Assembly (NCBI GenBank): GCA_037178675.1
Contig: JAYMGJ010000208.1
Span: forward strand, 1-47,329
Direction: 5' to 3'
DNA length: 47,329 nucleotides
From: Scleroderma bovista
Lineage: Eukaryota; Basidiomycota; Agaricomycetes; Boletales; Sclerodermataceae
Of the stretch, positions 4,141 through 45,600 are shown piece after piece. The position numbers and the translations under genes are program-made. The notes under the pieces were generated by a model. The model did not search any database. It saw only the letters and a program-made list of their open reading frames with translations, and was not told the origin of the DNA. Within the stretch, counting starts at the first letter, position 1; every line of letters begins with the position of its first letter.

Positions 4141-4660
4141 CTGGGCAAGTGAATAGGTGGGTGATGAACCTGGCGCGTAGGCATGGTATGTGCTCGTGGC
4201 CATAGAAGGGGTCAGCTTGCCATGAAACAGACCCTGCCAATTGGAGTTTCTGATGTGTGTTGGAAGGAGTAGGGAAGTTGTAAGACTGGGGGTACTTACC
4301 AGGTGAGGATAAGGTATCCAGGGGTGGGAGGCATTGTGTGAAGGGGTCAACCTGGCGTGTAGGTGCAATATGTGCTCATGGTCATAGAAGGGGTCAGCTT
4401 GCCGTGAAACAGATGCTGCCAATTGGAGTTTCTGATGTGCATTGGAAGGAGTAGGGAAGTTGTAAGACTGGGGGTACTTACCAGATGAGGATAAGGTATC
4501 CGGGGGTGGGAGGCAGAGAGGGTCAGGTTGCCATGAAACGGACACTGCTGATTGGGGTTTCTGATGTGCGTTGAAAAGAGTAGAGAAGATGGAAAACTGG
4601 GAGTGCTTACTGGCTGAGGTCCTGAGGATAAGGTATCTGGGGGTGAGAGGCGTTGTGCAG
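4141..4660. repeat. Imperfect three-copy tandem repeat, period about 192 bp
   Basis: The marker TTGGAGTTTCTGATGTG occurs at 4241, at 4433 and, diverged, at 4552. The first two copies are 192 bases apart and nearly identical. The third is only 119 bases further, so about 70 bases are deleted. The ORFs that overlap it on the minus strand simply read the repeat and look unlike real protein. Confidence 0.8.
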
Positions 4661-4868
4661 TGCATGAAAGAGGGGTGTGCTGATTGGTACGTGGTACCAC
4701 AGTCAAGCCATTGAGGTGGTTTGCCCAAATCGCCTGTGGTGGCTTCACTTTGATGCATGGCACTGCAACTGCACAGCATGAAAAAACATTGATGACAAAT
4801 TGGAAAAGAGGGTACATGTGGAGGTTGCACAATGGGTGGGTTTCCACACTGCATAGCCCAGCACAGAG

Positions 4869-7800
4869 CTAGAACACAATCTCGAACGCATGATGATCAG
4901 CATATTTATTAACATAAAAAGAATGAAACATGTCATAAGAATTGTGAGGTCTGATGTCTCTGACAACATTGTGAGAAGCATAGACGGGGATGAGATGCAC
5001 TGTACAATAAATAGTGTCAATGTGAATGACAGCAACATTTCAAATATTGTGTGCTTGGTAGCCTGGGTGGACAATCCACATCCCCATAGCCTCATCAGGG
5101 CCATTCCCTATGCAGTTGAACCAGTGCACAATGGCACATTGATGTTCTGTCCCTAGATACTTGAATGAAAAAAAAAAAAACATAAGACACGCACAATGTC
5201 CAGGCCACACATGCCTTGCATCTGTGGGTCGGTTACAACAAACACATAATCAAATGGGGGTTCCCATTCCGCCACATGGGGCAGGAATGGATATACTCGT
5301 GATGCACGCCATAGATGCCACTTAGATCACTGGGTGCAAAGAAAGTGGAGCATGCAGAGTTAAAGACATGGAGTGGACCATCATAAAATGGGCACTCGTC
5401 AGGAGGGATATTGTCTGGATTGTGAGGATCGGTAGCATCGAGTTGAGAGTGGAGGTAGCAGCGTAAAAGGCTTGAGAACTGTGGCATGTTAAGCTCATCT
5501 GCCAGGGCAGCTACTGTCCATGCACGATTATGTTCTAAGATGGGTTGATCAGTAGTACTGCTGCAAGAAACTGAGTAGTAAAACATACGATGAACGTGTG
5601 CCAATGTTACATGTGCATCAATCCTCATTGAGGTGTCAACTGCTTCACCTGCATCCTCTTCATGGCCCGCTGTTGTTTGCTCTATGTCTGGTGCGTTGTG
5701 GCCACCTTCCTCAATGCCATTGCGCTGATCGTGATCCCCATTAGCACAGTGTTCTAAATGAGAGTCAACATCAACAACAACTGGTGAAATGGAATTTCAC
5801 ACCTAATGCCTCAAGCATCTGAGATACACATGTTCCATTCAGCATACTGCACTCTTTAAAATCTGCACATGCTGCAGCAAGGTTGTCGAGCCTTTGGTTA
5901 ATCAAAAGCATTTGGCCCAAAGCTTGAAAGTGGTTAGTATGCCAATAAGGCCATTTGACAGCCTTAATATGTTTTGACTCAGTAATTGAGGAACAAAGTC
6001 CATTTGGTGCACCAAACTGGTGGATAAGGTGGTTGTAGTGCTTCATTGAATGTTGCTGGGGTAGCAAGAAGGTGTTGACTACACCAGTGTTCCAGAAGGC
6101 TTTGTGAAAATGATGGAAGCATTGAAGTGCATCGTCAATTTCGTTGATTGCTCAGTGACAACATTTCGACAAACAAGATAAGAGAATTCGAGGAAAGCTC
6201 AAAATGTATGCACTACGTCTTTTGGCATGTAGCCTTCAATGGCTGCAATGTAAACCTGTGTAACATTGGTCAATAATCACAGCCAGGAAAAATATAAACA
6301 TTATTACCTTCATTAGACCTTTTGAATTGTTGCCGGTCCACTGCTTAAAGGTCCGCCCTTGGGGGAAGTGCTGCAGGCCAGTAAATGGTGCCACAGCTGC
6401 AATCCTGAAAGTAATAATCAAAGAAGTGAGCAGTATGAATCACTGAATCATGTACCACCGGTCAATTTCATCAAGGATCTTCTCTGCACCTGCCTTTGTA
6501 TGAATTCAGATGAGGTACTTCTCAACCCATTCCACCAAGTGATCTTTGAATCTGCCCTTGATGAGTTGGTGAAGAATATCCGGTGAGAGCATTTGATAGA
6601 TATCTGCATGTGGGAAGTCGTTTGTAAATGGCTGTCTTTAATTAGACACCTTGTTATAACAAAAAAGGAGTACGAACTTACCACCAAATCACCCACAATT
6701 CCATACACATCCCAAAGTTTGCGAAATTCAAATTCTTCAATCACTGCATCGGCGTGCTCTCAGTGATGGTGGAGTGCTTCTTTGTCAAGGTTTGTCCGAT
6801 GTGCAAGACATTTTGGGCACCAGTTACGCACAATGCACAATAAAAGAACTTGCTCCTCGTAGTCTGCAATGTATGCTGCAAGGCTGTAAATAACACACTG
6901 GTAGTAGTCATCTCCAAACAACACAACCTCCGGGACCTTCATGGCAGAACAAAGCAAAAAAAGTATGCGTGTGAGTGAAGAATGAAAAAGCTGACGCTTG
7001 AATTTACAGAATTCCACAGAGTCTGCATGCTCTCTCATTGCTGTGCGACATGTCTTGAGTAGCACAAAACGAAGAAAACTATATTATACATACTTTTGGG
7101 CATTGCAAGAAATCCAATAAGAACGACAGCATTGCAGTGTCCACGACGGACAGTGTTCCACACATTTCCTATGGAGAGATATAGCAGGTAATAGTCCATT
7201 TGTCCCATTGCTACAGACACTATTGTCTTGTTGCTCCCCAGAATAATAGGGACCAATGTTGCACTGGCTGTTGTCAGATCATCTCGAATGATCCAGTCCT
7301 AAGTACTTGAAATTAGTATAAATTTACAGTAATAGATATGCTAATACCACTTCTTCCCAAGCCCAGTCACTGGACATAAAGTCTTGCCAGTGCCTCCTAT
7401 CGTTTGCGGTGTCGTATTCCTGGTAGGGTATATAATCCATTTTGTTCGTAAATTGAGGACTTGCAAGGATGTTGTGAACAACTTGACATGGGTCATGATA
7501 CCATACATTGTATGTGTCGGACATCCAAGGGGCCGCATCATTCTCTTGGTCACCACTTTTGTAACACACAGTGAAGTTCTCCCACTTCATGTCGCCAATG
7601 CATGTGCTGTCAATTATATGATAGAGACCTGTGTGATTAGAAAATAGCAGCTCCCCACCCAGTTCCAGCATTGATGCAGCCCAAATCTCAAGCAATGCAT
7701 CAATCTTTTTGATGGGCATTTCAGTGTGTGTAAAGAGAAAGTCGGCAAGTTCGAATTCCAGCCGGTTACGGTATGGAGACCAGTCATCTGGTGCCTTCAG

Positions 7801-8557
7801 TAAATGTGGTGGCGGTGGGGCATCATCAGGTAGAAAATGTCCAAGAGCATCACATTTTCATGTTGTAAAGATGTTAGTTAAAGTGTTCAGGTGATCATGG
7901 ATCCACAGGCTTACTGTTGAGACCTGGATGATAATTGCGGTAAAGCTTGCTGCCAGGACCAACAAACTTGGCCCTTAAAGCCTCATGTTCTCCCTCAAAT
8001 GGGTCTCCTCCTTCATGGCTGCTGTCTTCCCCTTGATAGCCATCTTCCCCTTGATAGCCATCTTCCCCTTGATAGCCATCTTCCCCTTGATAGCCATCTT
8101 CCCCTTGATAGCCATCTTCTCCTTGATGGCTGCCTTGATGGCCATTGAAGGTGTGTTCACGTAGCAGAGATGCTCTATTGTGGTGATCGAAAGATGGATG
8201 AAGGGTGTGCTTGTGCTGAGTGAGGCCAGAGAAATTTCTGAACCAGCAGTTGCACCCTGATGCATCACAGGGGTATTGGGCAGCACAGAAAGGCCTTTGT
8301 GTTGGCCTTTGACAATGACGATTTGCAGCTGGCTGCATCTTCAGAGTCAGTAAACACAGTAAGGACCATGTGGTCAATAAATGGTCAGGGTGAGTGGCAC
8401 TTAGCACCAAAAATTGTGTTATTTGTTTGCAAACAAACCTTAGCTGTGCACGAATAAAAACGACAAGTTCAAACTCACTGTTCATTGTCTCCATCTCCTG
8501 CCTGCTATGACAGGTACCATGTCGGCCAATAATCCCTCTTGGGGTCAACGTCTGCAT
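4869..8557 (-). pseudogene. Plavaka-type transposase (CACTA superfamily), broken into many fragments
   Basis: Minus-strand fragments line up in order as one long transposase. Near 8290 there is a C2H2-like finger ('CDASGCNCWFRNFSGLTQH') and then an acidic hexapeptide repeat. At 7719-7324 the fragment contains 'DALLEIWAASM' and 'YIPYQEYD'. At 7256-7035 it contains 'VPIILGSNKTIVSVAMGQ' and 'LYLSIGNVWN'. At 6067-5771 it contains 'QFGAPNGLCSSITESKHIKA' and 'GQMLLINQRLD'. The C-terminus ends 'FYVNKYADHHAFEIVF' at TAG 4871-4869. These are hallmarks of the Plavaka family of Agaricomycetes. The gene is dead: a frameshift occurs near 5263 (C run), another at the 13-base homopolymer near 5170, and internal stops lie in between. 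Short introns may account for some of the gaps, but not for the stops inside conserved blocks. Confidence 0.85.
8025..8132 (-). repeat. 18-bp coding minisatellite, six copies
   Basis: TCTTCCCCTTGATAGCCA repeats head to tail from 8025 to 8114, with a sixth diverged copy. On the minus strand it encodes the hexapeptide GYQGED, inserted just after the zinc-finger part of the Plavaka transposase. Because the period is a multiple of three, copy number change does not shift the frame. Confidence 0.9.
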
Positions 8558-14938: not shown

Positions 14939-16179
14939 ATGTCCTTCACTCCAGAGCCAATTCGTCGCCGGCGCCATTCAGGATCAATTGCAACCCAAGC
15001 GCTCGATCGCGTCAGGCAACACCTGGCATCTGACGAAGAATTCGAAAACACGATCGTCCCTCCTCCACGTCCAAAGTCTACCCCAATCGACGAACGTTCT
15101 CAGCGAGAAATTTCCACTCCCAGCCCAGAGAGACCAACTCGCCCATTGCCATCTTCCAAGACACGAAAAATGGCTAGCTCGTCCAACAATACTATCCTTC
15201 AAAACCCCTCCATGCTACCCGTGCAGGCTCACGTACCAAGGGGTGGTCCAGCCTCCACCCAGAGGAGGCTCTTCGTCATCCTGGAGCAGGCGTGCCTAGA
15301 GGCATACCGCGTTACCAGTGGAGGGAAGGGAAAGGGCGGTCGGGAGGGCGAAGTCAAGTACACCCTCCTCAACTGCGACGATCACCAAGGAATCCTTGCA
15401 AAAACCGGTCGGGACATTGCGGATGCTCGTCCGGACATCACGCATCAGGTTCGTTCCTATCGCAGTCGACCCTTACAGTGGACCGTACTTGACGCATCAT
15501 CCCCAGTGTCTCCTCACGCTTTTGGACTCGCCTCTTAACAAGGCGGGACGATTGCAGGTATTTATCCACACCGCAAAAGGTGTCCTCATCGAGGTCAATC
15601 CTCACGTGAGGATACCACGCACGTTCAAGCGATTCAGTGGCCTGATGGGTAAGCCGACGGACTCGAGGCCATTGATCATTATCTGATCGTTACCACAGTT
15701 CAACTGCTGCATAAGCTTTCCATCCGTGGCGTCAATGGGCCGGAGAAACTACTAAAAGTGATCAAAGTACGTTATCACCTTTGTCCATGCACAAACCCTA
15801 ATGGGCCCAGAATCCCGTAACCGATCACCTGCCTGTCAATACGATTAAATTGAGTAGGCGTGATTATCCATTATCTGATCGTACCTCTAATCGTGATTTC
15901 CCTAGCTCTCTCCGGGGATGCGCCAACTGTGCGCCTGTCAAAATATCTATCGACACTGCCAGAGACGCACTCCATCGCCATATTTGTCGGCGCTATGGCA
16001 CGTGGGCGGGACGACTTCGCAGATCACGTTGTAGACGAAAAAATCAGTATCAGTGATTACCCTCTCAGCGCATCGGTCGCTTGTGGCAAGGTGTGTCCTA
16101 TGGACTTCAAGCCCTAACTTTGTTGACGATCCTCCACAAGTTTTGCTGTACCCTTGAAGAGCTCTGGGACATCGTATGA
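14939..16179 (+). CDS. EMG1: EMG1/Nep1, 18S rRNA pseudouridine N1-methyltransferase
   Basis: Six exons: 14939-15448, 15507-15648, 15699-15766, 15811-15853, 15906-16090, 16141-16179, giving 328 residues with consistent phases. The SPOUT-class core carries the family blocks '[19 protein letters not shown]', 'ARPDITHQ', '[10 protein letters not shown]', '[12 protein letters not shown]', '[10 protein letters not shown]', '[20 protein letters not shown]' and the end '[20 protein letters not shown]'. Emg1 methylates N1 of the hypermodified pseudouridine in 18S rRNA and is needed for small-subunit assembly in the nucleolus. The first 105 or so residues are a basic, Ser/Pro-rich extension not needed for the fold; an internal ATG (about residue 77) is an alternative start. 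All introns are GT-AG and 44-58 nt long. The gene looks intact. Confidence 0.95.
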
Positions 16180-18143
16180 GGGGTCAAGTACCCTCGGTGT
16201 ACTCTTCTGGTCCGGCCTGTATCTCCTTCGTTTTTCTTGTGCAAGTACTCCACGCCCGGCATCCTCACCATTGCATTTCAACCTGCTGCATAAATTAAAT
16301 TTATGTTGTGCTAACAGTAGGCCGAAAAAACCCAAGCCCCCTCGCATTAGACTCACGACTCAACTCGTGTTTCTGGGCTCTGGAAATAATGATGCGATTC
16401 TGCTTTTATTTACTTGTAACAGTAAGCTATATGAAGATTCATAGGACATGAAGATCAATTTTTTGCCTTATGTACACCCATGTTACGCCTTTCAATGATT
16501 TATTTGTTGAAAATGACGACGACTACATAGGGAAATTCTACCATGGTACACGTGACTATGTATTGCTTCTGAGATCACCCATCCTAATCAAGTGGCTACA
16601 GCGACGTACTGACCTACTATCGTATGCCAAGACATAGGTATCATGCACATCAAGGCTGCGCCGCAGTCGGCGTAAAATGGTCGCGGAAAGCGTCCTAGAA
16701 GATGGCGGAGTGGCTGCGTTCCAAGCGAATCAAGTGTACTTGATACCACTAGTACCCAGAAAGTACCGCAAACCCAACACGAAAAGAGAAAAACAGGCGC
16801 TTGCTCGTAGGGAAGGCAGCAAACTGGCATTGCAGTTGGAGGTAACATCATGATCAATCAGACGGTCATTTCCGAGGGGACTAAAATACTTCATTCGGTT
16901 GATCTCAGGGGTCCTTTGTTAAATGCCGGAGTCGGAGGGAGGTGCATGGGTCGTCGTATCGATCAGAGACTTATCGTGCACACCCCGCAGGCTAGTATCA
17001 TTCGCATCAGCACTTCTTGCATGCAATGCGCAACCGCCGGAATGGCCATTTGAGTTCTCTGGACCACACCCGGTGGGTCGTGGTATTATTTTTCTCCCTC
17101 CAGAATTTCCTTTCATCACGAAGTCTAGCAGCTCTTTGTTGATAGCGCCATCTCACGTCCGCAGTAACGGGCCGTACCAGCGTCCTGGTAGCCTTTACCA
17201 GCTTCGTGCCAGTCCGCCGCACGACCTGTACGAGGCTCTGCGAGGAAGGAACAGAAGCGATGCACACTCTGGTGGACCGTTTTTCTTCAAGGTTCTCTGG
17301 CTGTTTGTGCACTAGTATGGGAGCTTCAGCGTTTGATCGAATATGGCCAATGATTGGCGCAGGGAAGAAATGGCTTCCTACCTTTACCATCACCACGGCC
17401 ATCACGGCCACCACCGCCACTTCATCACTTCCATTGCCGTGTACCCCACCACCACCACCGCCACCATCACCATCCTCATCCCCATCACCACAAGGACGAT
17501 GACCTCGTCGACGCTCGTCCACCCGGCAAGTCCCCACAGCATGACTGCCACTGCTAACCACTGCTACCCCCGAATTGTCGAGTCGGACCACTTAGTAACG
17601 ACTGGTATTAAGAGACCGTATCGTGCTTCGGGCGCATTCTCAGTGTGAACACTTCCAGGCAGGTCGCTGAAGAGATACTGCTGTGGTTTAGCATCGCACA
17701 CAAATACGCTTTATGCCCTCCAGAAGGCAAAAACCCTGTAACAGTGGTTATAGTAGATCGCTTTGAATGAACGCCTGGAAAGCTTACTTCCTTAAATTCA
17801 GTCAAGATCATGATGGTTTCGGAATATCGACATGTTTAGGAGGCAACTGGTAGTTTAGGGGCTTGGACTCGTACAGAGAATGCATTAATGCCAAGTCCAT
17901 TTGATTGCTATTGTAATTAGAGGTACATTGTGATGTAGTCGAACTTGCGACAGAGTGAGGAAGTGCTACAAAGGAAATGAGATACAGTAGAATTGCGCGT
18001 GTAGACCGTCGTTCATGAAGAAAAAAATGGTTCAATAAGTAGAAGTACATTGCATAAGATCTTCGTACTTTCGTGATTATGCTGTCGTGTATCGCGTAAT
18101 CGTAATTGAGGTGGCCGATGGTAGAAGTTCCGCACTGTAGGAG
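16180..18143. other. Long intergenic region, little recognisable
   Basis: Nearly 2 kb between two convergent genes. Apart from the doubtful minus-strand ORF at 17007-17591 and a short CAC/CCA-rich tract near 17380-17500, I see no conserved coding sequence, RNA gene or element ends. Confidence 0.5.
17007..17591 (-). CDS. Doubtful ORF, Gly-rich N-terminus and basic C-terminus
   Basis: 194-codon open frame on the minus strand. It begins with Gly/Val/Asp-rich low complexity (the CCA tract read backwards) and ends in an Arg/Lys-rich segment ('TKLVKATRTLVRPVTADVR'). I recognise no family. The plus strand is also open over most of this stretch, so this may be chance. Confidence 0.2.
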   Translation of the reverse strand: MVRLDNSGVAVVSSGSHAVGTCRVDERRRGHRPCGDGDEDGDGGGGGGGVHGNGSDEVAVVAVMAVVMVKVGSHFFPAPIIGHIRSNAEAPILVHKQPENLEEKRSTRVCIASVPSSQSLVQVVRRTGTKLVKATRTLVRPVTADVRWRYQQRAARLRDERKFWREKNNTTTHRVWSRELKWPFRRLRIACKKC

Positions 18144-33193: not shown

Positions 33194-36100
33194 ATGGCTC
33201 TCCGTAGGTTTAAGAGGATATTGTCACCATCGAAGAACAGACCAGGTAGGGTCTTGCCCATGAGTCCTGAGGGCACCTGATTGCTCATCTTCATTACCTA
33301 CTAACTAGAATCTGCGCATCGGAATACAACACCCACTCACAGTGTCGCCACGTCTAATGTGCCTTCTATGGATCGTACTGATGTCTCGACCCATTTCTCT
33401 GGTTACTGAATCCCATCGCTATCAGTTTTCAATAGCTTATTTACACGATTTCTAGGCACCACTCGTGGCGACACTGCGCACGCTCATGCTCTCGCCACCG
33501 TTTCCGCCCCTCTCAGTGATACTAGTACAGTTATCCCCACGTCAGGTTCGGTTTGGTCTCCACACTCTAAGGATTATACACTTTAGTATTCATACAATCA
33601 TCCAGGGTCTGCGGCTGGCGCTCTGACAGGTGCCTCCCCTATGGATGCCGATCATCCTAGTAGCGATGCCAATTGCGATGTTCGGTCTGGGCTATCTGTC
33701 ATTCCTACCACCGTGCATACTGACACAAAGTGGCCAGAAAATATTTCAAGGTGTTCCGAATTCTCGTTGTAGGCAGGGCAAATGCAGGCAAGACAACTAT
33801 TCTTCAACGGGTTTGTGCCACCAAAGAGCAGCCTGAGATCTTTGATGGGAATGGACAAAAGGTGCGTTACAGTCTGATCATGAGTATTGGTACATTGCTG
33901 CTATCTGATATTCAGATTGATATGGATGTGGTCAAAGGGTCACTTGAAGTGAGGATACTAGAATCCATCACTTGTCATACTTGCTGACATTTCCCAGCGG
34001 GGAGAGCATAGCATCGAGAATGAATTGAAATTCAGCAGCAATCCAGGCTTTATTTTTCACGATTCCAGTGGATTTGAAGCTGGGAGTGTGGAAGAATTCA
34101 ACAAGATGAAAGACTTTGTGCTGGACCGGGCGACCACATCACACTTGAAGAAACGGATCCATGCTATTTGGCAAGTGCATTTTGTGTCTTTCAAAGGAGG
34201 TTGTTGCTCATAAGAATTACCATGTGATACAGGTATTGCATCCCTGTAACTGATTACAACAGACCTATTGTGGCTGCAGAGATAAAATTCTTTCAGGAAT
34301 GTGATACAAAGAAAGGTATGTAAATTCATGACTGCATGCTTTCTAGTTCATCATATTTTTAGTTCCTGTCCTTGTATTGTTGACAAAGCTTGACACCCTG
34401 GAGTCTAATGCTTACAATGAACTCAAGAATGAAGGATGTTCAAAGGAGGAAGCAAGGAAATTGAGAAGTGAACGTGCACAACAAATGTTGGAGAGGCTAC
34501 AAGTTCAAATAGAAAGTGAACTAGGGATGACTCAATTCCCTCCTAAAAACTATGTTCAGTTGACTAGTAAGTATAGCCTGCTGAAAATTGCAGTCATAGT
34601 CCTAATGTTTGCAGGCATGCATGAAGATAATGCTGACTGTGGACCTCTTTTGGAAAAGACTGCAACTGCACTGGATGAAGTGGCCTTGCAACTGCTTCTG
34701 GTAACTACCCAGCAAACTAATCTGCACCTTTGCATTGAATGGGCTGTAAAAATGTAGGTGATGATATTAAACTGGAAATTTATGGAAAACTAATGTTGAA
34801 TAGTGCAATATGGGAGGTTATCTGTGCACAGGATTGTTCAGTGGCATTAGAGACATTGCTTGTTCTGTGGTTTCCACATACAAAGGTATGTTGCATTGCA
34901 TGGTGATGAAAATACATCAGAACATTGATATTACCAAAAGTTTGTGAGTACATAAATGCCTTTTAAATTGATGCCTTGCATAATTCTGATTATTCCTCAT
35001 AGTTGGTGAGCTGTTTTATCTGCAGTCATCTAGAATGTCTCTGAAAATCCTCTTCTGCATTGGTGGCTCTGCTCACTTGATAGCTTGTGAGTAACTTATT
35101 TACACCTACAAATGCATATCTTTGATTGGTTATCATCTTTTCTTGACAGTTTGTAAGTGTTGTGTCTCAAGTGCACCTGAAAGTCCTATGACTTGCTTGA
35201 TAGGATGTGAGTCACTTGTGACAAATGCACTTGCAATGTCTGATGGTTCTGTTCTGCTGGTGATCTGTACTAAACAGGAGGTGAGCATTAGTGCTCAAGT
35301 GGTCCTGCAAGCCCTGATGATGGTTCTCTTGTCTGGATTTCTTGATAGGATGTGAGTTGCCTCATCACAGGTGCACTTGCACATCATGGCTTTAGTAACC
35401 TTATTCCATTGGGCATTGGGTTGGCTTTACAGTATGTGAGTTGCTTGATTTCAAATCATCTTACAATGTATCTGTCTTGCTGATGATCTCATTGATTTGG
35501 TAGCCTGTAAGCTGCTGATCACAAGCACATCTAGATTGTCTAACAATGATAATTGTACAAACATATCAGAATGTGGGGTATTTGATTGCAAGTGTGCATC
35601 TGAAATATCTCTAACCATCATCTTTGTGGATAACTATACCCACTTGATAGGTTGTAAGTGATGTCAAATTCACATGTAATGCCCTGCTGATGACCCCACT
35701 TCTTTTCTAGGTTGTGAGTTACTTGCTTCAAGTGCACTCAAAAGTCCTGATAAATATGTCCTGCTGTAATTTTTATGCACTTAGTATGCAGTGAGTCACT
35801 CCACCTTGTTTCAAGTGTGCACCTACAATCTTTCTGATGTCCTTGATGCTCTTGTTTACCTGACAGAATGTAAGTTGCTTGATCTCATATGACACAATAT
35901 TTAATTCTGACATTCCTTTATTGCTGATTGGACTGACTTAATAGCATGTGAGTTACCACATGGATGCCTGCCATAATACTGTCAATTCTCCCTTACTGGT
36001 TATCCTATTCTGTTAACAGGAGGTGAGTTACTTCATCTCACATTTATATGATCAATATTTACTGATGTTTTTCAGGATGTAGGTTGCTTGTTGTCAAATA

Positions 36101-39100
36101 AATCCACAATTTTGCTTACAGCTATATCCCATGGCTGGTGGTTTTAACAGATTGTGAGACACATGATCATAAATGCATACCTGTGTTTATTCTGTCACCT
36201 TATGATTCTGCTCACTTGTCAGCTTGTGAGTTGGTTGACCTTCAGAGTGCCAAAATATCTCTAACAATCTCAATCATTTGGTGGTTTGCCTTAACTGATA
36301 GTGGGTGAGATTCTTCCATGAAATGTACTTGAAATGCATATGACAATGCCATACTATTGCTGTTACTTCTAGAATGTGAGTTGCCTGACCTCAAGTATAG
36401 TTTCTAACATTTCAATTCTGCTGATGGCCTGGCTCAACAGAAGGTATGTTGTTTGTTTTCAAGTACATGTGCTAAATATAATTGGGCCCTCATAATGCTG
36501 TTCTATTGATGACACAGCTTGTATGTTGTTTTATCTCAAGTCTGATTAAATTCCCTCTGAAAGTTCTTCTCTGCTGTTAATCTGGCTTCTGAGATAGTAT
36601 GTGAGTCTTGATGTCAACTATAAATATGCACAACATCTCACTCTGACATCTTACTTCAATGGCAAGGGGGTGAGTTAGCTTATCTGAAGCACAAATGCCA
36701 TGCTTCTAACACTTCCATCTTGTTGATGGTTATACTCACTTGAAAGATTGTGAGTTACCATTGCTACTAGTACCATACAATGATAAGGTCCTATTATACA
36801 CATGACAGTGTGTGAGTTTGTGAACTTTCAATGTAACTGAATTATCCCTAATATGTGATTTGGGTAGGATGTGAGTTGTTCAGTCTCATTTGACAATTTG
36901 ATTCTGATTCTGATCTGGCTTTGGTAGCATGTGAGTTGTTCAGTCTCATTTGACAATTTGATTCTGATTCTGATCTGGCTTTGGTAGCATGTGAGTTGTT
37001 CAGTCTCATTTGTCAATTTGATTCTGATTCTGATCTGGCTTTGGTAGGATGTGAGTTGTTCAGTCTCATTTGACAATTTGATTCTGATTCTGATCTGGCT
37101 TTGGTAGGCTGTGAGTTGTTCAGTCTCATTTGTCAATTTGATTCTGATTCTGATCTGGCTTTGGTAGGCTGTGAGTTGTTCAGTCTCATTTGACAATTTG
37201 ATTCTGATTCTGATCTGGCTTTGGTAGCTTGTGAGTTGTTCAGTCTCATTTGACAATTTGATTCTGATTCTGATCTGGCTTTGGTAGGCTGTGAGTTGTT
37301 CAGTCTCATTTGTCAATTTGATTCTGATTCTGATCTGGCTTTGGTAGGCTGTGAGTTGTTCAGTCTCATTTGTCAATTTGATTCTGATTCTGATCTGGCT
37401 TTGGTAGCTTGTGAGTTGTTCAGTCTCATTTGACAATTTGATTCTGATTCTGATCTGGCTTTGGTAGGCTGTGAGTTGTTCAGTCTCATTTGTCAATTTG
37501 ATTCTGATTCTGATCTGGCTTTGGTAGGCTGTGAGTTGTTCAGTCTCATTTGTCAATTTGATTCTGATTCTGATCTGGCTTTGGTAGCTTGTGAGTTGTT
37601 CAGTCTCATTTGACAATTTGATTCTGATTCTGATCTGGCTTTGGTAGGCTGTGAGTTGTTCAGTCTCATTTGTCAATTTGATTCTGATTCTGATCTGGCT
37701 TTGGTAGGCTGTGAGTTGTTCAGTCTCATTTGTCAATTTGATTCTGATTCTGATCTGGCTTTGGTAGGCTGTGAGTTGTTCAGTCTCATTTGTCAATTTG
37801 ATTCTGATTCTGATCTGGCTTTGGTAGCGTGTGAGTTGTTCAGTCTCATTTGACAATTTGATTCTGATTCTGATCTGGCTTTGGTAGCTTGTGAGTTGTT
37901 CAGTCTCATTTGACAATTTGATTCTGATTCTGATCTGGCTTTGGTAGGATGTGAGTTGTTCAGTCTCATTTGACAATTTGATTCTGATTCTGATCTGGCT
38001 TTGGTAGCTTGTGAGTTGTTCAGTCTCATTTGACAATTTGATTCTGATTCTGATCTGGCTTTGGTAGGATGTGAGTTGTTCAGTCTCATTTGACAATTTG
38101 ATTCTGATTCTGATCTGGCTTTGGTAGGATGTGAGTTGTTCAGTCTCATTTGACAATTTGATTCTGATTCTGATCTGGCTTTGGTAGGCTGTGAGTTGTT
38201 CAGTCTCATTTGTCAATTTGATTCTGATTCTGATCTGGCTTTGGTAGGCTGTGAGTTGTTCAGTCTCATTTGACAATTTGATTCTGATTCTGATCTGGCT
38301 TTGGTAGGCTGTGAGTTGTTCAGTCTCATTTGACAATTTGATTCTGATTCTGATCTGGCTTTGGTAGGCTGTGAGTTGTTCAGTCTCATTTGACAATTTG
38401 ATTCTGATTCTGATCTGGCTTTGGTAGGATGTGAGTTGTTCAGTCTCATTTGACAATTTGATTCTGATTCTGATCTGGCTTTGGTAGGATGTGAGTTGTT
38501 CAGTCTCATTTGACAATTTGATTCTGATTCTGATCTGGCTTTGGTAGGCTGTGAGTTGTTCAGTCTCATTTGTCAATTTGATTCTGATTCTGATCTGGCT
38601 TTGGTAGGCTGTGAGTTGTTCAGTCTCATTTGTCAATTTGATTCTGATTCTGATCTGGCTTTGGTAGGATGTGAGTTGTTCAGTCTCATTTGACAATTTG
38701 ATTCTGATTCTGATCTGGCTTTGGTAGGCTGTGAGTTGTTCAGTCTCATTTGACAATTTGATTCTGATTCTGATCTGGCTTTGGTAGCTTGTGAGTTGTT
38801 CAGTCTCATTTGACAATTTGATTCTGATTCTGATCTGGCTTTGGTAGGCTGTGAGTTGTTCAGTCTCATTTGTCAATTTGATTCTGATTCTGATCTGGCT
38901 TTGGTAGGCTGTGAGTTGTTCAGTCTCATTTGTCAATTTGATTCTGATTCTGATCTGGCTTTGGTAGGCTGTGAGTTGTTCAGTCTCATTTGTCAATTTG
39001 ATTCTGATTCTGATCTGGCTTTGGTAGCGTGTGAGTTGTTCAGTCTCATTTGACAATTTGATTCTGATTCTGATCTGGCTTTGGTAGGATGTGAGTTGTT

Positions 39101-40589
39101 CAGTCTCATTTGACAATTTGATTCTGATTCTGATCTGGCTTTGGTAGGCTGTGAGTTGTTCAGTCTCATTTGACAATTTGATTCTGATTCTGATCTGGCT
39201 TTGGTAGCGTGTGAGTTGTTCAGTCTCATTTGACAATTTGATTCTGATTCTGATCACATTTTAATAGAATGTATGTTATTCATTCTCCATAATGTTTTTT
39301 TGACACTTCAATTCTTATCATGGTTTTCCTCACATAATAGCAAGTAAGTTTTTTTCTTCATTCAAAATACCATTTGCTTGTGGCCACTGTATTTCATTGA
39401 TGGTAACTATCATGATAGGATGTAAGTTACTTTTTTGAAGCACAGATGCAATTGGGTCAATAATATTTTTTGCTATTCTCTCAATTGACAGCTTGTGAGT
39501 TGCATGATCTGCAGTTTGTATATGTATTGCTGATATTTCTCAAAAATCATTTCTGCTTGGTGATATAAATGGCACAATAGAAAGTAAGTTACCCTTGAGT
39601 GGATTGCTATTTCCCTGACATACTAATGATGTACCACATCAGCATGTGAGTCAATTGATCTTAACTGTATCTATTTTTGATGATCTCATCTGGCATTCTG
39701 TTCATTTGATAGGCAGTGAGTCACATGCTCTGAGCTGTCATTACTAGTAGGGTACCTCATAACCTTTTGCATTTCAGTTGGTAGGTTTTGTCATTGTACA
39801 TGCTCACTCCAAATGCCCATTTCCTTATACCAGGATGTATGTATACCATCTGTTTACAATTCTGGTAATATCTTAAATGTTATGGATATCACTTCCTATA
39901 ATAGCAAGTGAGTCATCAGCCACTATCATTATGTGACATCTTTCTAATGTATTCACATTTCTAGAATGTATGCAATTATTCAGATGTTATTGTTTCCATT
40001 CCAGCTTACCCACCAATTATGTAGCTGGTGTGTCTTCAACCCCTTTCTTAAGGAATGTCAATGTTTTCAACCCAAGACCATGTTCTTTATGATCCATCTA
40101 GTTGGTAAATTCAAGACCTACATCAATTATATCAATACTAAATTTTATATTAGGAGGTCAAGCCTGAACATTCACAATGGAAGAATGTGGAAGCAATTCT
40201 GAAGCAATTATTTTCTCAGAAAACTGCTGCTTCAGGATCAGCCACTCATATTATCACACAATATGCAATTGGTAATGTCCATTTACTATTTTGATTTTCC
40301 TTTTCTTATTATTACATGTTGTGCAGCAATATTAATTGTACTTGAATATTCCTTCTTTCTGCAGCATGATTCAATGCATCTGAAAGATGCTTTGGAATCT
40401 GCAGTGACAGAGTACAATAAGTCTGGAGCCCAAATGACTGTCAAAACAGCCATTTCAGCCACTATTCCCAGTGCAAAACCACCCCAATCAGCCAAAGATG
40501 ACTTCTGCAAGAAGATCATCAACATCACCCTGAACCACTTGATGTGTAAGGGACACTACTTTCAATTCAACCAGAACTCACATTACTAA
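33194..40589 (+). CDS. P-loop GTPase-like protein, split by about 91 introns including a codon-sized microexon array
   Basis: Ordinary exons: 33194-33245, 33309-33401, 33456-33545, 33606-33659, 33731-33861, 33916-33948, 33998-34170, 34233-34315, 34363-34566, 34615-34753, 34804-34885, then the array, then 40005-40100, 40154-40271, 40327-40589. With all microexons included the model is 1848 nt and 615 residues, frame intact. Motifs: Walker A 'GRANAGKT' at 111-118, 'FHDSSGFEAG' (DxxG, 173-176) and 'TKLD' at 244-247. These identify a G-domain protein of a family expanded in Agaricomycetes, with unknown role. After the array come 'EVKPEHSQWKNVEAILKQLF' and a hydrophobic segment 'AILIVLEYSFFL', possibly membrane-associated. 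The intron after 34170 starts GCAAGT (GC-AG). Exon 4/5 junction (GTAGCG donor) is the weakest ordinary site. Residues 379-457 come from the array. Confidence 0.78.
34886..40004 (+). other. Array of 79 intron-like units separated by 78 codon-sized microexons
   Basis: Every unit begins GTGAGT, GTAAGT, GTATGT or a close variant, contains CTGAT/CTAAC-type branch motifs near its 3' part, and ends TAG or CAG (AAG in three). Spacers begin at 34941, 35003, 35084, 35150, 35204, 35278, 35349, 35433, 35504, 35570, 35651, 35711, 35785, 35867, 35945, 36020, 36076, 36151, 36223, 36302, 36373, 36441, 36518, 36598, 36667, 36747, 36809 and 36868. They continue every 60 bases from 36928 to 39268, and then at 39341, 39419, 39492, 39581, 39643, 39713, 39778, 39834, 39905 and 39965. 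All are 3 nt except 35785-35790 (6 nt). None is a stop. Outside the core, units share only faint sequence and range from 37 to 86 nt. The exon before ends in phase 0 and the exon after (40005) starts in phase 0. A weaker reading is one 5.1-kb intron containing a satellite. Confidence 0.75.
36871..39270 (+). repeat. 60-bp satellite, 40 copies: 57-nt intron plus one codon
   Basis: Forty head-to-tail units with no indel. The 57-nt part is GTGAGTTGTTCAGTCTCATT..., has three CTGAT words and ends TTGGTAG; it varies at one main position (TGACAA or TGTCAA). The last copy changes to a diverged 3' half. The three-base part varies among GCT, GAT, CTT, CAT, CGT and AAT, so the core would encode an Ala/Asp/Leu-rich stretch. 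Such homogeneity implies recent spread by unequal exchange or gene conversion. Because 60 is a multiple of three, one minus-strand frame and one plus-strand frame stay open across it; those are artefacts. Confidence 0.95.
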
Positions 40590-41121: not shown

Positions 41122-42030
41122 ACGACGCGTATTGCAGTCGTGGGTAGCAACGGCCGTGGCACGGTTGGCAAAAGCACCGTCGCAAATGCATTTTCTCTAA
41201 GATGACCGGTTCATTTGTACGCCCCACAGATCTCGCAGTTTCTCTCGCCATGCAGGAGCCCACGTCGCCTGGACAGCGTATATGTATGGGCGTGATATAC
41301 TTGTGCCGTCTGTGCCAACACTGATGGGTCTTCGACACACCGACGAGCCGCCGTTGACATCTGGTATGCCCCTACTTCTCCCCCCCCCCCCCCCCCCCCC
41401 CCCACATCCTGACCAACTGAGCCCTTGTTTTCAGCGAGTGCGATCATTCCCATCACCAGCCATGCGAACCGGCCATGTCCATAGGCTACCTCCTTCCCAA
41501 GTCTGCGCCAGGTCCGTCACGCCAAGGTGTATAGCAGTTACTATTTGAAGTGGACTGGCGCGATGGTGGAGAGGGTTCTGGACTAGATGTGCGCCAATTC
41601 ACAAGGTTGGTATGCTTTAATGCAATGTGTTTTCCAATAGGCAGTGCGGTGATTTCCTCTACGTCTCAGGATGTTGCTTTGACGGACGTCCACTGGGGTA
41701 ATCCATGTTTTGCAAAGTCGCCGTACCGGTGCGTGATGTACACGTTGCTGTATTTCCTGCATCTTAGTACCGCATTGAACGATTACAGGAATGATCCTGA
41801 ATCAGTCGTATTTTGTCTGCCCCTCTTGTGCCACCCCCCACTACTACCTCTTCGGATCGCCGACAGCCTTTTGCTCCATTGCTGCCTCGCTCGATGTTCT
41901 CGTCCTGGGTGAATTGCCCCTCGTGAAGGGTGTCAGTGTGGACGGAGATAATAGCATGCCCTATGTGCTTACCTCAAGCAAGGAGCAGGGGGGGAGGAGG
42001 ATAATGCAGGTAGGCGAGACATCATGCAAG
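41122..42030 (+). pseudogene. IND1: Decayed copy of IND1/NUBPL (Mrp/NBP35-type Fe-S assembly ATPase)
   Basis: Plus-strand pieces in order: 'RIAVVGSNGRGTVGKSTVANA' (deviant Walker A; the family has GKGGVGKS), 'ILVPSVPTLMGLRHTDEPPL' near 41300, 'PAMSIGYLLPKSAPGPSRQG' near 41460, 'QLLFEVDWRDGGEGSGLDV' near 41540, 'GSAVISSTSQDVALTDVHWG' near 41640, and 'LNQSYFVCPSCATPHYYLFG' with 'LGELPLVKGVSVDGDNSMPYV' near 41800-41970. IND1 inserts Fe-S clusters into mitochondrial complex I; the CPSC motif binds the cluster. The copy changes frame several times, has stops, lacks the 'MPPGTGD' block and is interrupted by a run of 24 C. It keeps intron-like gaps, so it is a dead duplicate rather than a processed copy. 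Confidence 0.8.
41380..41403. repeat. Homopolymer of 24 C
   Basis: An uninterrupted C run inside the IND1 pseudogene, right where the family reads a Pro/Leu-rich loop. Long G/C homopolymers are rare and unstable, so the exact length may be a sequencing estimate. Confidence 0.9.
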
Positions 42031-42672: not shown

Positions 42673-45600
42673 TCACTGTGGTTGTGAGGCAGGTGACTGT
42701 ACCCAGGGCGAAACAGAGTCGTCGAGCATGATTCCGCGTATCCTCTCATACACTGCCTCTGGGAATCGTCTGTGGACATAGACATGAGTAAGACCGTATA
42801 TGTCCTTCTAGCGGACTGCCACGTACCTTTCTTGTAGCCGGTGTAGGAGAGCGACGGCGAGATCGCGATTCCCATTACCAAGTTCAGCACGGAACATGGC
42901 TTCCCACGTCGATGGCTGCAACGAAAAGAGCCATCAGAACGGAGCAACTCATTTGTTTAGTCGAAACCGACGTACCTCTCTGTACGAGGGCCCAGGCGAT
43001 AACAGGGGAGAGCTGGATGCGGAATTGTGAGGGACGTGGTTGTTGGGAGCAGCAACGCCGCTAGGCGGATCCTCTAAGCTCTCAAATACCCTCCGTGCCT
43101 CCTCGATATCGCCTGCAGCGGCGTAGCCCTTGATCAACAGGTTCGCAATGTACGCCGTCATGTGCACGCCCGTCGCTTGCAGCCTTGAGAGGTAGCTAGG
43201 AACGAGATCCATACGCTTGTGCGTGACGAGTACATTGATAAGTGATTCGTAAGTGACGGCGTCTGGGAGGGTGCTACGGCGGGAGGAAGGACGCGACGAG
43301 ATGGACTCGAAGATGTTAATGGCTTTGTCGAGGTCTTTGCAGACGCAGCCGTATGCGTTGATGAGCGCTGACCAGTGGGTACCTTGAAGTGCAACTTCAG
43401 CAGACGACTCGATCTGCTTGAATGTTTTTTCCATAGCCTCTACGTTGATCGGCTCTATGGTTCCATATGCGTCTATCAAGAGCTGAAAGGGATGCGTCAG
43501 AAGAATGGCACAATAGTTCATTAAGGACCATCACCTTGTAAGTGTGCGCAGAAGGCTTGATCCCTGCCTTCAACATCAAATCATAATAGTGCAACACGCG
43601 CTCCCTATCCGGCTTGGTGTGCGTGTACATCTGCATCATAGTATTGAACGGCGGGATCCGAGGCCGGAAATTGTGCTGGCTCGCCATCTCCTCGAAAAGT
43701 TGCTCGGCGGTCTGGTAATCACCTACACGGGCACACGCCGCAATGACCGCACCATACGTGATCGACGAAGGACGCAACTTGTCGTCTTTCATCTGCCGGA
43801 ACAGGACCAGCGCATGATCTGCCTTGCGTGCTTTGGCAAGCTTGGAGATGATGGTGTTATAGAGGTACACATTTGGCTTTACCCCGAGCGACAATGAGTC
43901 AGTGAAGAGGTCCAGTGCATTGGATGTGTCGTCAGTGGTGTCACGCATACACTCAATAAGAGATCCGAATGCGTCAGGAGAGGGGACGCCGCCAGCTGCG
44001 GTGATGCGGTCGCGGTGCATATAAGCGGCCTCCATATCACCGGCGTGAGCATGCGCGACGATCATCTGGTCCTCGATCTGGAACCACGCCTCGGTCTGCC
44101 AGGCGGGGTTGGCGAAGAAATAAGGCGAAAAGAGGACTTGTTGGGCAATGGAATAGACCGATTCGAGCGCAGGGATGTCGTGTGTGCGGCCAAGGCCGTT
44201 GATGAGGCGGCCGAGGACAATGGGGTGAGGGTACCTTGTAGAATCCGCCGATAAAGCTGATTGGAGGCGCGCGTAGCCATCATGCACAGTGAGCGAACGA
44301 TGCGTTGGAGACCATTCGTCGACGTGGCGACTGAGTTCGGAGTCGATGATGACCTGTGCAGGGGGAGGGGACACGGCGACAGACGGTGTGGGGGTGGGGG
44401 TGGGAGAACGAGGTTTAGAGCGATGAAGGTGAGGTAGGTCTCCGAACAAAAGGTCGACTATTTCACCATCGTCAGTTGCGTAGAGCGCCTCTGCGACAGC
44501 TGTGAGTACTCCATCCGACACACAGGTCACCTGGCTAATGGCGTCAGCGGTATTTATTGCTTGGAGTAACCCTGCGAGGGACTGGTATGCACACCCCTGG
44601 AAAAGGTCGTCGTGCGAGAGTTGAGTGGGAAGCACGAGAGCGCAAGACAACAGGATCTCGTAGTCGTTCGTCGTCAGTGACCGTTTTGCCTCCTTCGGAG
44701 CAACGATGTAGGCATGAAGGTGATACGGAGCCATCAAAGGCGTCGGGACCACACCCTCGGATACAGTGTACCGCATTAGTTCTACAGTCTCCAAGAGAGG
44801 TTCCTGAGACGAGGAAACAACCGCCTCAAGAGCGAGCGGGACGACATTGGTGAGGAGGTGTGAGGAAATCCTGGCCGCGGATTTATCATCCTCCGTCAAC
44901 GATTTTCCGATCACCGCCGACTCCTCGGCCACCAATGTCTTCGCTAGCTTCCACGCCTGCTCAGCCATTCCAAAACGCACGAAGTGATGGTATAAGCGGG
45001 TCAGATTATTCGAGCACTCTGCGATGTGAAGGATATAGGGCAAGATGTCCTTGTTAGGTGAGATTTGTTGCGCAACGAACGAAAGTGAGGAGCGGGCGAG
45101 TTCCTCGTCGTCCGGCAAAACTGCTTGCTCCAGGAAACGCAGGTTGGCATCGAGCACCATTGACCGTAGGGACTTGGAGTCCAACTTGTCTTTGGGGGCA
45201 CATTCAACCAGAGTTTCGAATAACTTGTTGAGATCGTGGATGCGAGATTTGTCCGAGGTAGATGCTTGTGAGAGTGCGTCAAGCATCACATTCCAAGTTG
45301 TTTGGTCTGGTCGCGTCGGTTCAGGAGTAGAAACGAATGAGTCATGGGCCGCGGTAGGCTGTAGAAGCAGGCGATTGAACCAAGAGAGCGCAGTGGCAAT
45401 GTCTGGCTCGGGTGGCGATCCGGATGCGGTGTTTGGGGTTGGATTGCAGAAGCCGTTGATGATGGTCGTGAATGTCGACGATGCAGGACTTGGAATGACA
45501 GTCTTTTCCGCTGCAGGAATTAATGGGTGAGCTATAAATTCGAAGCACGGGGAATTAAATACCTTGGGTATCAGTGCTTTTGGCGTCCATCATGGTCTCG

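Follow-up and report, generated by a model that had tools for sequence, protein, structure and literature searches.

Arrays of predicted one-codon exons in a GTPase gene family of the fungus Scleroderma bovista

We describe an array of tandem intron-like units, separated from one another almost always by three nucleotides, within a predicted GTPase gene of Scleroderma bovista. The window analysed is the 47,329-nt contig JAYMGJ010000208.1 of the S. bovista assembly GCA_037178675.1 (51.8 Mb, 850 contigs), referred to as C208; other C-numbers are contigs of the same assembly and P-numbers are database proteins. Scleroderma, like Pisolithus, is an ectomycorrhizal fungus. Our analysis indicates that the triplets between the units are probably one-codon exons, spliced in and translated as a hypervariable segment between two domains of the protein. 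A first-pass annotation had proposed such exons for this single gene, an interpretation now supported by the spacing of the units, by the avoidance of stop triplets, by codon conservation between the arrays C216a and C216b, and by a database protein, P0056, that carries array-like residues and an apparently retained array intron. Arrays of this kind are moreover a trait of the gene family, and we read them at 14 loci of the genome.

In the window, the stretch 34886-40104 splits without remainder into units of the form GT..AG|NNN|GT..AG. The introns preceding the 80 spacers are 51-86 nt long (57 nt in the homogenised core) and all GT..AG, as the parse imposes; 59 have a GTGAGT donor, the acceptors are TAG (61), CAG (16) or AAG (3), and a branch-like CTNAY lies 10-50 nt before the 3' end of 69 of the 80. 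Where a strict donor of the array has a YAG within 30 nt upstream, the nearest YAG is exactly 3 nt away in 65 of 67 cases, 5 further donors having no YAG, compared with 2 of 44 such donors on both strands of the rest of the window, where 28 further donors have none. None of the 80 spacers is a stop (0/78 in a separate count), in agreement with the first-pass annotation. Its proposal that the array is entered and left in phase 0 is likewise confirmed, as joining the flanking exons through all 80 spacers leaves the frame open for 491 residues, from 33724 up to the stop at 40589, and the exon following the array has the same phase in the paralogs C69 and C448.

The extent of the array differs somewhat from what had been proposed, namely 78 microexons (one of 6 nt) followed by an ordinary exon starting at 40005. 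The division into units and the single 6-nt spacer hold, but the count is most likely 80. The acceptor at 40004 (CAG) is missing in C448 and C69, and paralog copies of the 3' end of the array keep the pieces |CTG or TTG| and |TTG|, each before a donor. The sequence thus most likely continues as array through the two added microexons of Table 1, and the next ordinary exon probably begins at 40154. In favour of the earlier exon at 40005, a parse without length preference took the acceptor at 40004, with a 23-nt exon, in both C208 and C406.

The three-nucleotide spacing recurs across the genome. In a count over 12 array stretches, including the near-duplicate C406, that used strict donors and a YAG within 30 nt upstream and made no assumption about exon length, the YAG lies exactly 3 nt upstream of 455 of the 468 donors having one, and 45 further donors have none. 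A dynamic-programming parse of 12 array stretches, in which exons of 1-30 nt were allowed with no length preference, yielded 521 exons of 3 nt among 540; several of the remaining 19 reflect the choice of an earlier AG in the same intron and a few are real. Genome-wide, 869 of 898 pairs of CTTGACAG..GTGAGT lying 0-20 nt apart are separated by exactly 3 nt (reversed controls gave 0 and 3), and the pattern GTGAGT-N42-72-YAG-NNN-GTRAGT has 1228 matches compared with 21 in its reversed control. The same general pattern with a 4-nt spacer has 40 matches, compared with 81 in the control. These results bear out the earlier remark that spacer lengths do not drift as intron lengths do.

A two-unit DNA query from the C208 array has at least 95 matches, all in C208, C406, C448 and C69, and a strict three-unit pattern has 84 matches compared with 1 in the reversed control, its single outlier pointing to C216 as a fifth locus. 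With its array removed, the host protein has matches at 144 places in the genome, and arrays lie downstream in all five paralogs fetched on the host-protein match alone (C211, C158, C453, C206 and C216b). Arrays are also present in C101, C111, C181 and C127, of which C101 and C111 were picked because array matches were already known there. Two loci, C406 and C181, resemble second copies of C208 and C101. C406 is 98.9% identical to the window in two long aligned pieces covering the array and, judged by this identity, is probably the other haplotype of C208; C101 and C181 are 97.5% identical over one 2.1-kb aligned piece and differ in unit number and codons.

There are also signs that the triplets are coding. 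Over 11 stretches (C406 left out) 1 of 462 triplets is a stop, compared with 44.4 (standard deviation 4.0) expected from position-wise shuffling; when each distinct triplet is counted once per array the figures are 1 and 11.4 (standard deviation 2.2). TAA or TGA occurs at 2 of the 869 genome-wide CTTGACAG sites, TAG falling outside this count. Between C216a and C216b, which have 23 paired units, the spacers are identical at 64 of 69 bases (93%) and at all 23 middle codon bases, compared with 71% (ungapped) or 60% (gapped) for the intron interiors (Fisher p 1.6e-5 for spacer versus intron identity); random unit pairs give 65%. All 23 spacers but only 4 of the 23 introns are equal in length in this pair. 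A whole-block alignment of C216a and C216b keeps AG in 21/22 and GT in 21/22 positions at 56% interior identity, and that of C208 and C69 keeps AG in 40/41 and GT in 41/41 at 71-74%. The 28 units of the 5' block of C208 match 28 units of C69 one to one, most intron lengths being unequal.

Ten stretches entered a comparison of heterozygosity within arrays, of which nine had a large enough core, C69 being too diverged. In six cores (C208, C406, C453, C211, C158 and C101) the triplets are 9 to 52 times as heterozygous as the introns. Mean heterozygosity is 0.013 in introns and 0.66 in triplets of the C101 core (25 units, 78-nt introns), with 0.026 and 0.50 in C453 (60 units) and 0.013 and 0.36 in C208 (40 units). 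The fact that triplets are diverse where the flanking introns are homogenised, and where they would be expected to be homogenised too, argues for selection or, less likely, for targeted mutation. C208 and C406 have all 41 non-core spacers in common and show 7 differences over the 2602 bases of the 39 introns that are equally long; the C406 core contains 21 of the 60-bp units, and the core codons as cut, 39 in C208 and 20 in C406, differ in sequence (HHDAALAALAALAAARLDLDDAAAADDAADALAAARDAR and HHDAAAAAAYYAYAAHHHAA).

Public sequences also bear on whether the array introns are removed. P0056, of 453 residues, derives from a 2346-base contig with the source label 'lgn' and matches C206, C127, C101, C181, C60 and C730, mostly at 66-87%; because it runs uninterrupted through what are separate exons in this genome, it resembles spliced RNA. 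After ILDWMPYLQ come about 77 residues with an abundance of K, S, E, L and W, which the arrays of C101 and C206 encode too. Residues 345-424 had no tblastn match in four paralog loci, and the tail is 85% identical over 26 residues to the first array codon plus array intron of C206. The simplest reading of this sequence is that P0056 represents a transcript from which many array introns were removed and in which one was retained. The only matches to its region 300-453, apart from P0056 itself, were two Scleroderma yunnanense models, both ending shortly past the WMP motif. In the AlphaFold model of P0056 (mean predicted local distance difference test score, pLDDT, 67) the array part, 344-431, is predicted to be helical with a block pLDDT of about 64-84, which is weak evidence.

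Other relatives are less direct. P0077, read without interruption from a 1699-base contig, has about 44 linker residues where arrays sit, and its residues 300-338, which match the array region, are modelled with low confidence. The contiguous relatives P0159 and P0179 both terminate in array-like runs, but proteins often have Q/E- or G-rich ends, and as array-bearing relatives these two are only suggestive. Many public models of this GTPase family stop, or by eye turn unrelated, soon after the WFP motif, where arrays begin, some of them with VS, which is what GTGAGT encodes. In Pisolithus microcarpus the model P0013 runs on through two units of similar kind, so that arrays probably exist in that species.

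The predicted product of the host gene, an open frame, is a P-loop GTPase as judged by Pfam. For the window protein and six relatives, Pfam gave matches only to GTPase and other P-loop families (such as MMR_HSR1, Arf and Septin), mostly below cut-off; WD repeats or an NLR architecture were not found in the family by this search, and the IIGP family, which we take to be the Pfam entry for immunity-related GTPases, did not appear at E<=1 with the window protein or at E<=0.01 with the six relatives. Searched as a profile against solved structures, A1 gave 16 GTPase matches, all weak, with E up to 0.1. A fold search with the P0077 model gave 9 matches at E<=0.001, and one with the P0056 model gave none at that threshold. 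Among the matches listed, the closest relative of the host protein is P0001 of Scleroderma citrinum (82% identity over 52% of the query), followed by proteins of Pisolithus, Rhizopogon and Suillus. The start of the gene was placed from the MALRR.. of P0001, and the resolved exons begin further downstream, at the first G-domain exon of Table 1.

Table 1. Features of the host gene, its array and the remainder of the window.
Feature	Position	Strand	Description
Host gene, 5' part	33194..34885	+	ATG 33194 is the predicted start; ordinary introns 47-62 nt
G-domain exons	33724-33861 (frame only), 33916-33948, 33998-34170, 34233-34315, 34363-34566, 34615-34753, 34804-34885	+	
Ordinary intron of host gene, predicted	34171-34232	+	GC..AG boundary
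Array	34886..40153	+	81 intron-like units with 80 predicted microexons between them (79 x 3 nt, 1 x 6 nt; 81 codons)
5' diverged block	34886..36870	+	28 units, introns 51-81 nt, codons FLLFDEDYPNVV-YA-NHEDILWNKLYGICD
Sole 6-nt spacer	35785..35790	+	TATGCA; also 6 nt in C69 (AGGGCA) and C448 (ACAGCA)
Homogenised core	36871..39270	+	40 units of 60 bp (57-nt intron + codon GCT/GAT/CTT/CGT/CAT/AAT)
Open frame antisense to core	36828-39260	-	Stop-free, 810 codons; follows from a 60-bp unit with one open frame
3' diverged block	39271..40104	+	With the last core exon AAT (39268-39270), 13 codons: NQDLKHALDQNLL
Microexons added to earlier model	40025-40027, 40102-40104	+	CTG and TTG
Predicted array peptide, stretch			FLLFDEDYPNVVYANHEDILWNK
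First ordinary exon after array	40154..40271	+	Begins EVKPEHSQWKNVEAILKQLF..., phase 0; homologous in C69 and C448
Last exon	40327..40589	+	C-terminal region, stop TAA
Tandem repeat	8025-8127		18-bp unit, 5.7 copies, 98% matches
C run	41380-41403		24 C
Open frame	43397-45589	-	730 codons; by-eye resemblance to a pentatricopeptide-repeat protein

How might such an array be expressed? We propose that it consists of tandem intron-like units whose splice signals lie 3 nt apart (once 6), and that each spacer would be a translated exon, usually of one codon. Short fungal introns are recognised across the intron, and the spliceosome could therefore remove the array introns one after another by intron definition; after each removal the upstream exon would be long again, and at no step would splice sites need to be paired over a 3-nt exon. 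Translation would give a GTPase in which a variable segment joins the G domain/helical part to a C-terminal helical domain. Because each unit consists of an intron and a single codon, unequal exchange among near-identical introns would add, drop or reorder single codons with the frame intact. Selection would then maintain codon diversity in some genes and hold the codons constant in others, perhaps in the service of non-self recognition.

A number of observations weigh against this proposal or against parts of it. The array is known here from genomic sequence alone, and none of the 120 matches listed covers the window gene's own array, those from Scleroderma, Pisolithus and Rhizopogon covering at most 61% of the query. 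The presumed status of P0056 as complementary DNA is read from its contiguity. The models of several relatives (P0004, P0085 and P0153 among them) run through a short contiguous linker from the WFP motif to the C-terminal domain, and in these proteins the array segment is short, absent or skipped. Among the arrays themselves, one intron in C448 contains an insert of about 2.5 kb (about 15530-18070 of the contig), apparently a dispersed repeat because window 11961-12472 matches part of it at 87% identity. Three of the 40 matches with a 4-nt spacer resemble array units (C101:57386-57403, C298:22812 and C384:34922) and would cause a frameshift; no 4-nt spacer is seen in C181, which is nearly identical to C101. 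In an irregular stretch of the C206 array (4500-5000), perhaps a decaying copy, one spacer is TGA and two others measure 8 and 5 nt. TGA spacers also occur at C534 and C694, and some array copies may be broken. The ratio of exon to intron diversity, which reaches 52 (C101) across the nine cores, is as low as 3 in C111 and 5 in C206 and C448b.

Conservation is likewise uneven between subfamilies. In C208, C69 and C448 the spacers are 79-83% conserved, no better than intron interiors at 80-81%, and codon changes comprise 14-15 non-synonymous and 0-3 synonymous, which again tells against the proposal; ordinary exons are 87-95% identical between C208 and C69, the only pair compared. Because the spacers are only as conserved as introns and replacements dominate, the sequences of this subfamily suggest that its architecture is constrained and its residues are nearly free or pushed to change. 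The idea that triplets are better conserved than introns everywhere was thus wrong for C208/C69/C448 and right for C216a/b, the pairs tested. Finally, the view that the segment is diversified for recognition is drawn by analogy only, which also counts against it.

The main alternative to splicing is that the whole 5.2 kb forms one long intron containing an intron-derived satellite, with triplets that are non-coding and never enter messenger RNA. An ordinary satellite in a long intron was rejected on the spacing, the stop avoidance and the splice-site constraint. The intron-derived version would account for a core that is a clean 60-bp minisatellite and for C208/C69/C448 spacers that evolve about as fast as introns, and it accords with a gene seen here solely as genomic DNA, yet we consider it improbable: decay should break AG, GT and spacing, whereas AG (40/41) and GT (41/41) are kept at 71-74% interior identity, stops are avoided (1 versus 44 expected), the C216a/b spacers are conserved and their introns are not, and P0056 carries array-like residues. 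A more serious competitor, though still an unlikely one in our view, accepts that the exons are spliced in and regards them as a tolerated by-product of introns that multiply with an attached codon, in a loop that accepts anything but a stop. The C208/C69/C448 spacers look nearly free to change, the matching P0077 region (residues 300-338) is low-confidence, and gain or loss of whole codons preserves the frame, all as this explanation would have it. Neutral turnover, however, should homogenise the triplets together with the introns, and the triplets are 9-52 times more diverse in six cores and are held by selection in C216a/b.

Two further explanations concern the origin of the repeats. It is scarcely credible that they are a coding minisatellite of the opposite strand. 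The minus strand is open for 810 codons in the C208 core and for 1684 in C453, but the unit lengths of both are multiples of 3, such that one open unit yields a long run, and stretches with variable units (C216 and C448a) are open for at most 76 and 61 codons on the antisense strand and still keep the 3-nt spacing; antisense coding is therefore not general. Slightly less remote, but very improbable all the same, is that the units are copies of a mobile intron, or introner-like element, inserting side by side and duplicating 3 bp of target each time. The units of an array do all look as though copied from a single intron, and fungi are known to carry introner-like elements (PMC4457414). The two-unit DNA query, which represents one unit type and gives lower bounds, had its matches in four arrays only; target duplications would tend to equalise neighbouring triplets; and copy number differs between the near-identical C208 and C406.

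If the triplets are spliced in as one-codon exons, dozens of consecutive 3-nt exons would be joined in order, which tests the limits of intron definition and sequential splicing. Three purposes remain under consideration for the array: diversification for recognition, a tolerated by-product, and a structural spacer of adjustable length. We tentatively suggest, as a possibility rather than a favoured conclusion, that the introns serve as recombination arms, with 57-78 nt of homology, one residue per unit and a scaffold that is spliced out, allowing single residues of a recognition segment to be shuffled, gained or lost in a large family of immune-type GTPases, on a finer scale than exonic repeats permit. 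This would, if true, be a new evolutionary use for introns, as stretches of homology through which a protein can be altered by single residues. The arrays appear to escape gene finders, and a class of hypervariable segments may consequently be missing from databases, here among the Scleroderma and Pisolithus relatives.

Runs of one-codon exons were not found in the literature on tiny exons, exon arrays and introners as far as it was covered, which included few subscription papers and preprints. Tiny exons are described singly or in small number in fungi: the portions consulted report an isolated 1-nt exon in Fusarium CYP621A (PMC12940212) and two 3-nt exons in lipS of a Dactylellina species (PMC5639578), with no array in either. 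Many small exons in one gene, 80 being predicted in the Scleroderma host gene, recall the microexon genes of schistosomes and aphids. The central coding part of schistosome microexon genes also consists of small exons, most of them multiples of 3 nt, but these are described as <36 bp and, in the part of the report covered, without single-codon runs or a homogenised tandem array (PMC4671649). The aphid bicycle genes and the megacycle gene (>100 microexons) similarly combine dozens of tiny exons with a fast-evolving family; they apparently belong to another protein family, and the sections covered do not describe tandem single-codon exons (PMC9168663). Among GTPases, IRG (Irga6, GM4951) and septin/EngB proteins show sequence identities of 8% and 18% in the matches listed.

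A close parallel in evolutionary behaviour is offered by the WD-repeat genes het-d and het-e (HNWD) of Podospora anserina, for which the available part of the account reports concerted evolution of the repeats with four residues per repeat under diversifying selection (PMC1805685). Both systems are gene families with tandem repeats, a homogenised backbone, a few diverse codons per unit and a variable number of units (PMC1805685). Diversifying selection and a role in recognition are reported there for het-d/het-e and would extend to the Scleroderma arrays by analogy (PMC1805685). The two differ in what is homogenised, as the backbone of het-d/het-e is translated protein, whereas in the Scleroderma arrays the homogenised part is the intron and one codon is kept per unit (PMC1805685).

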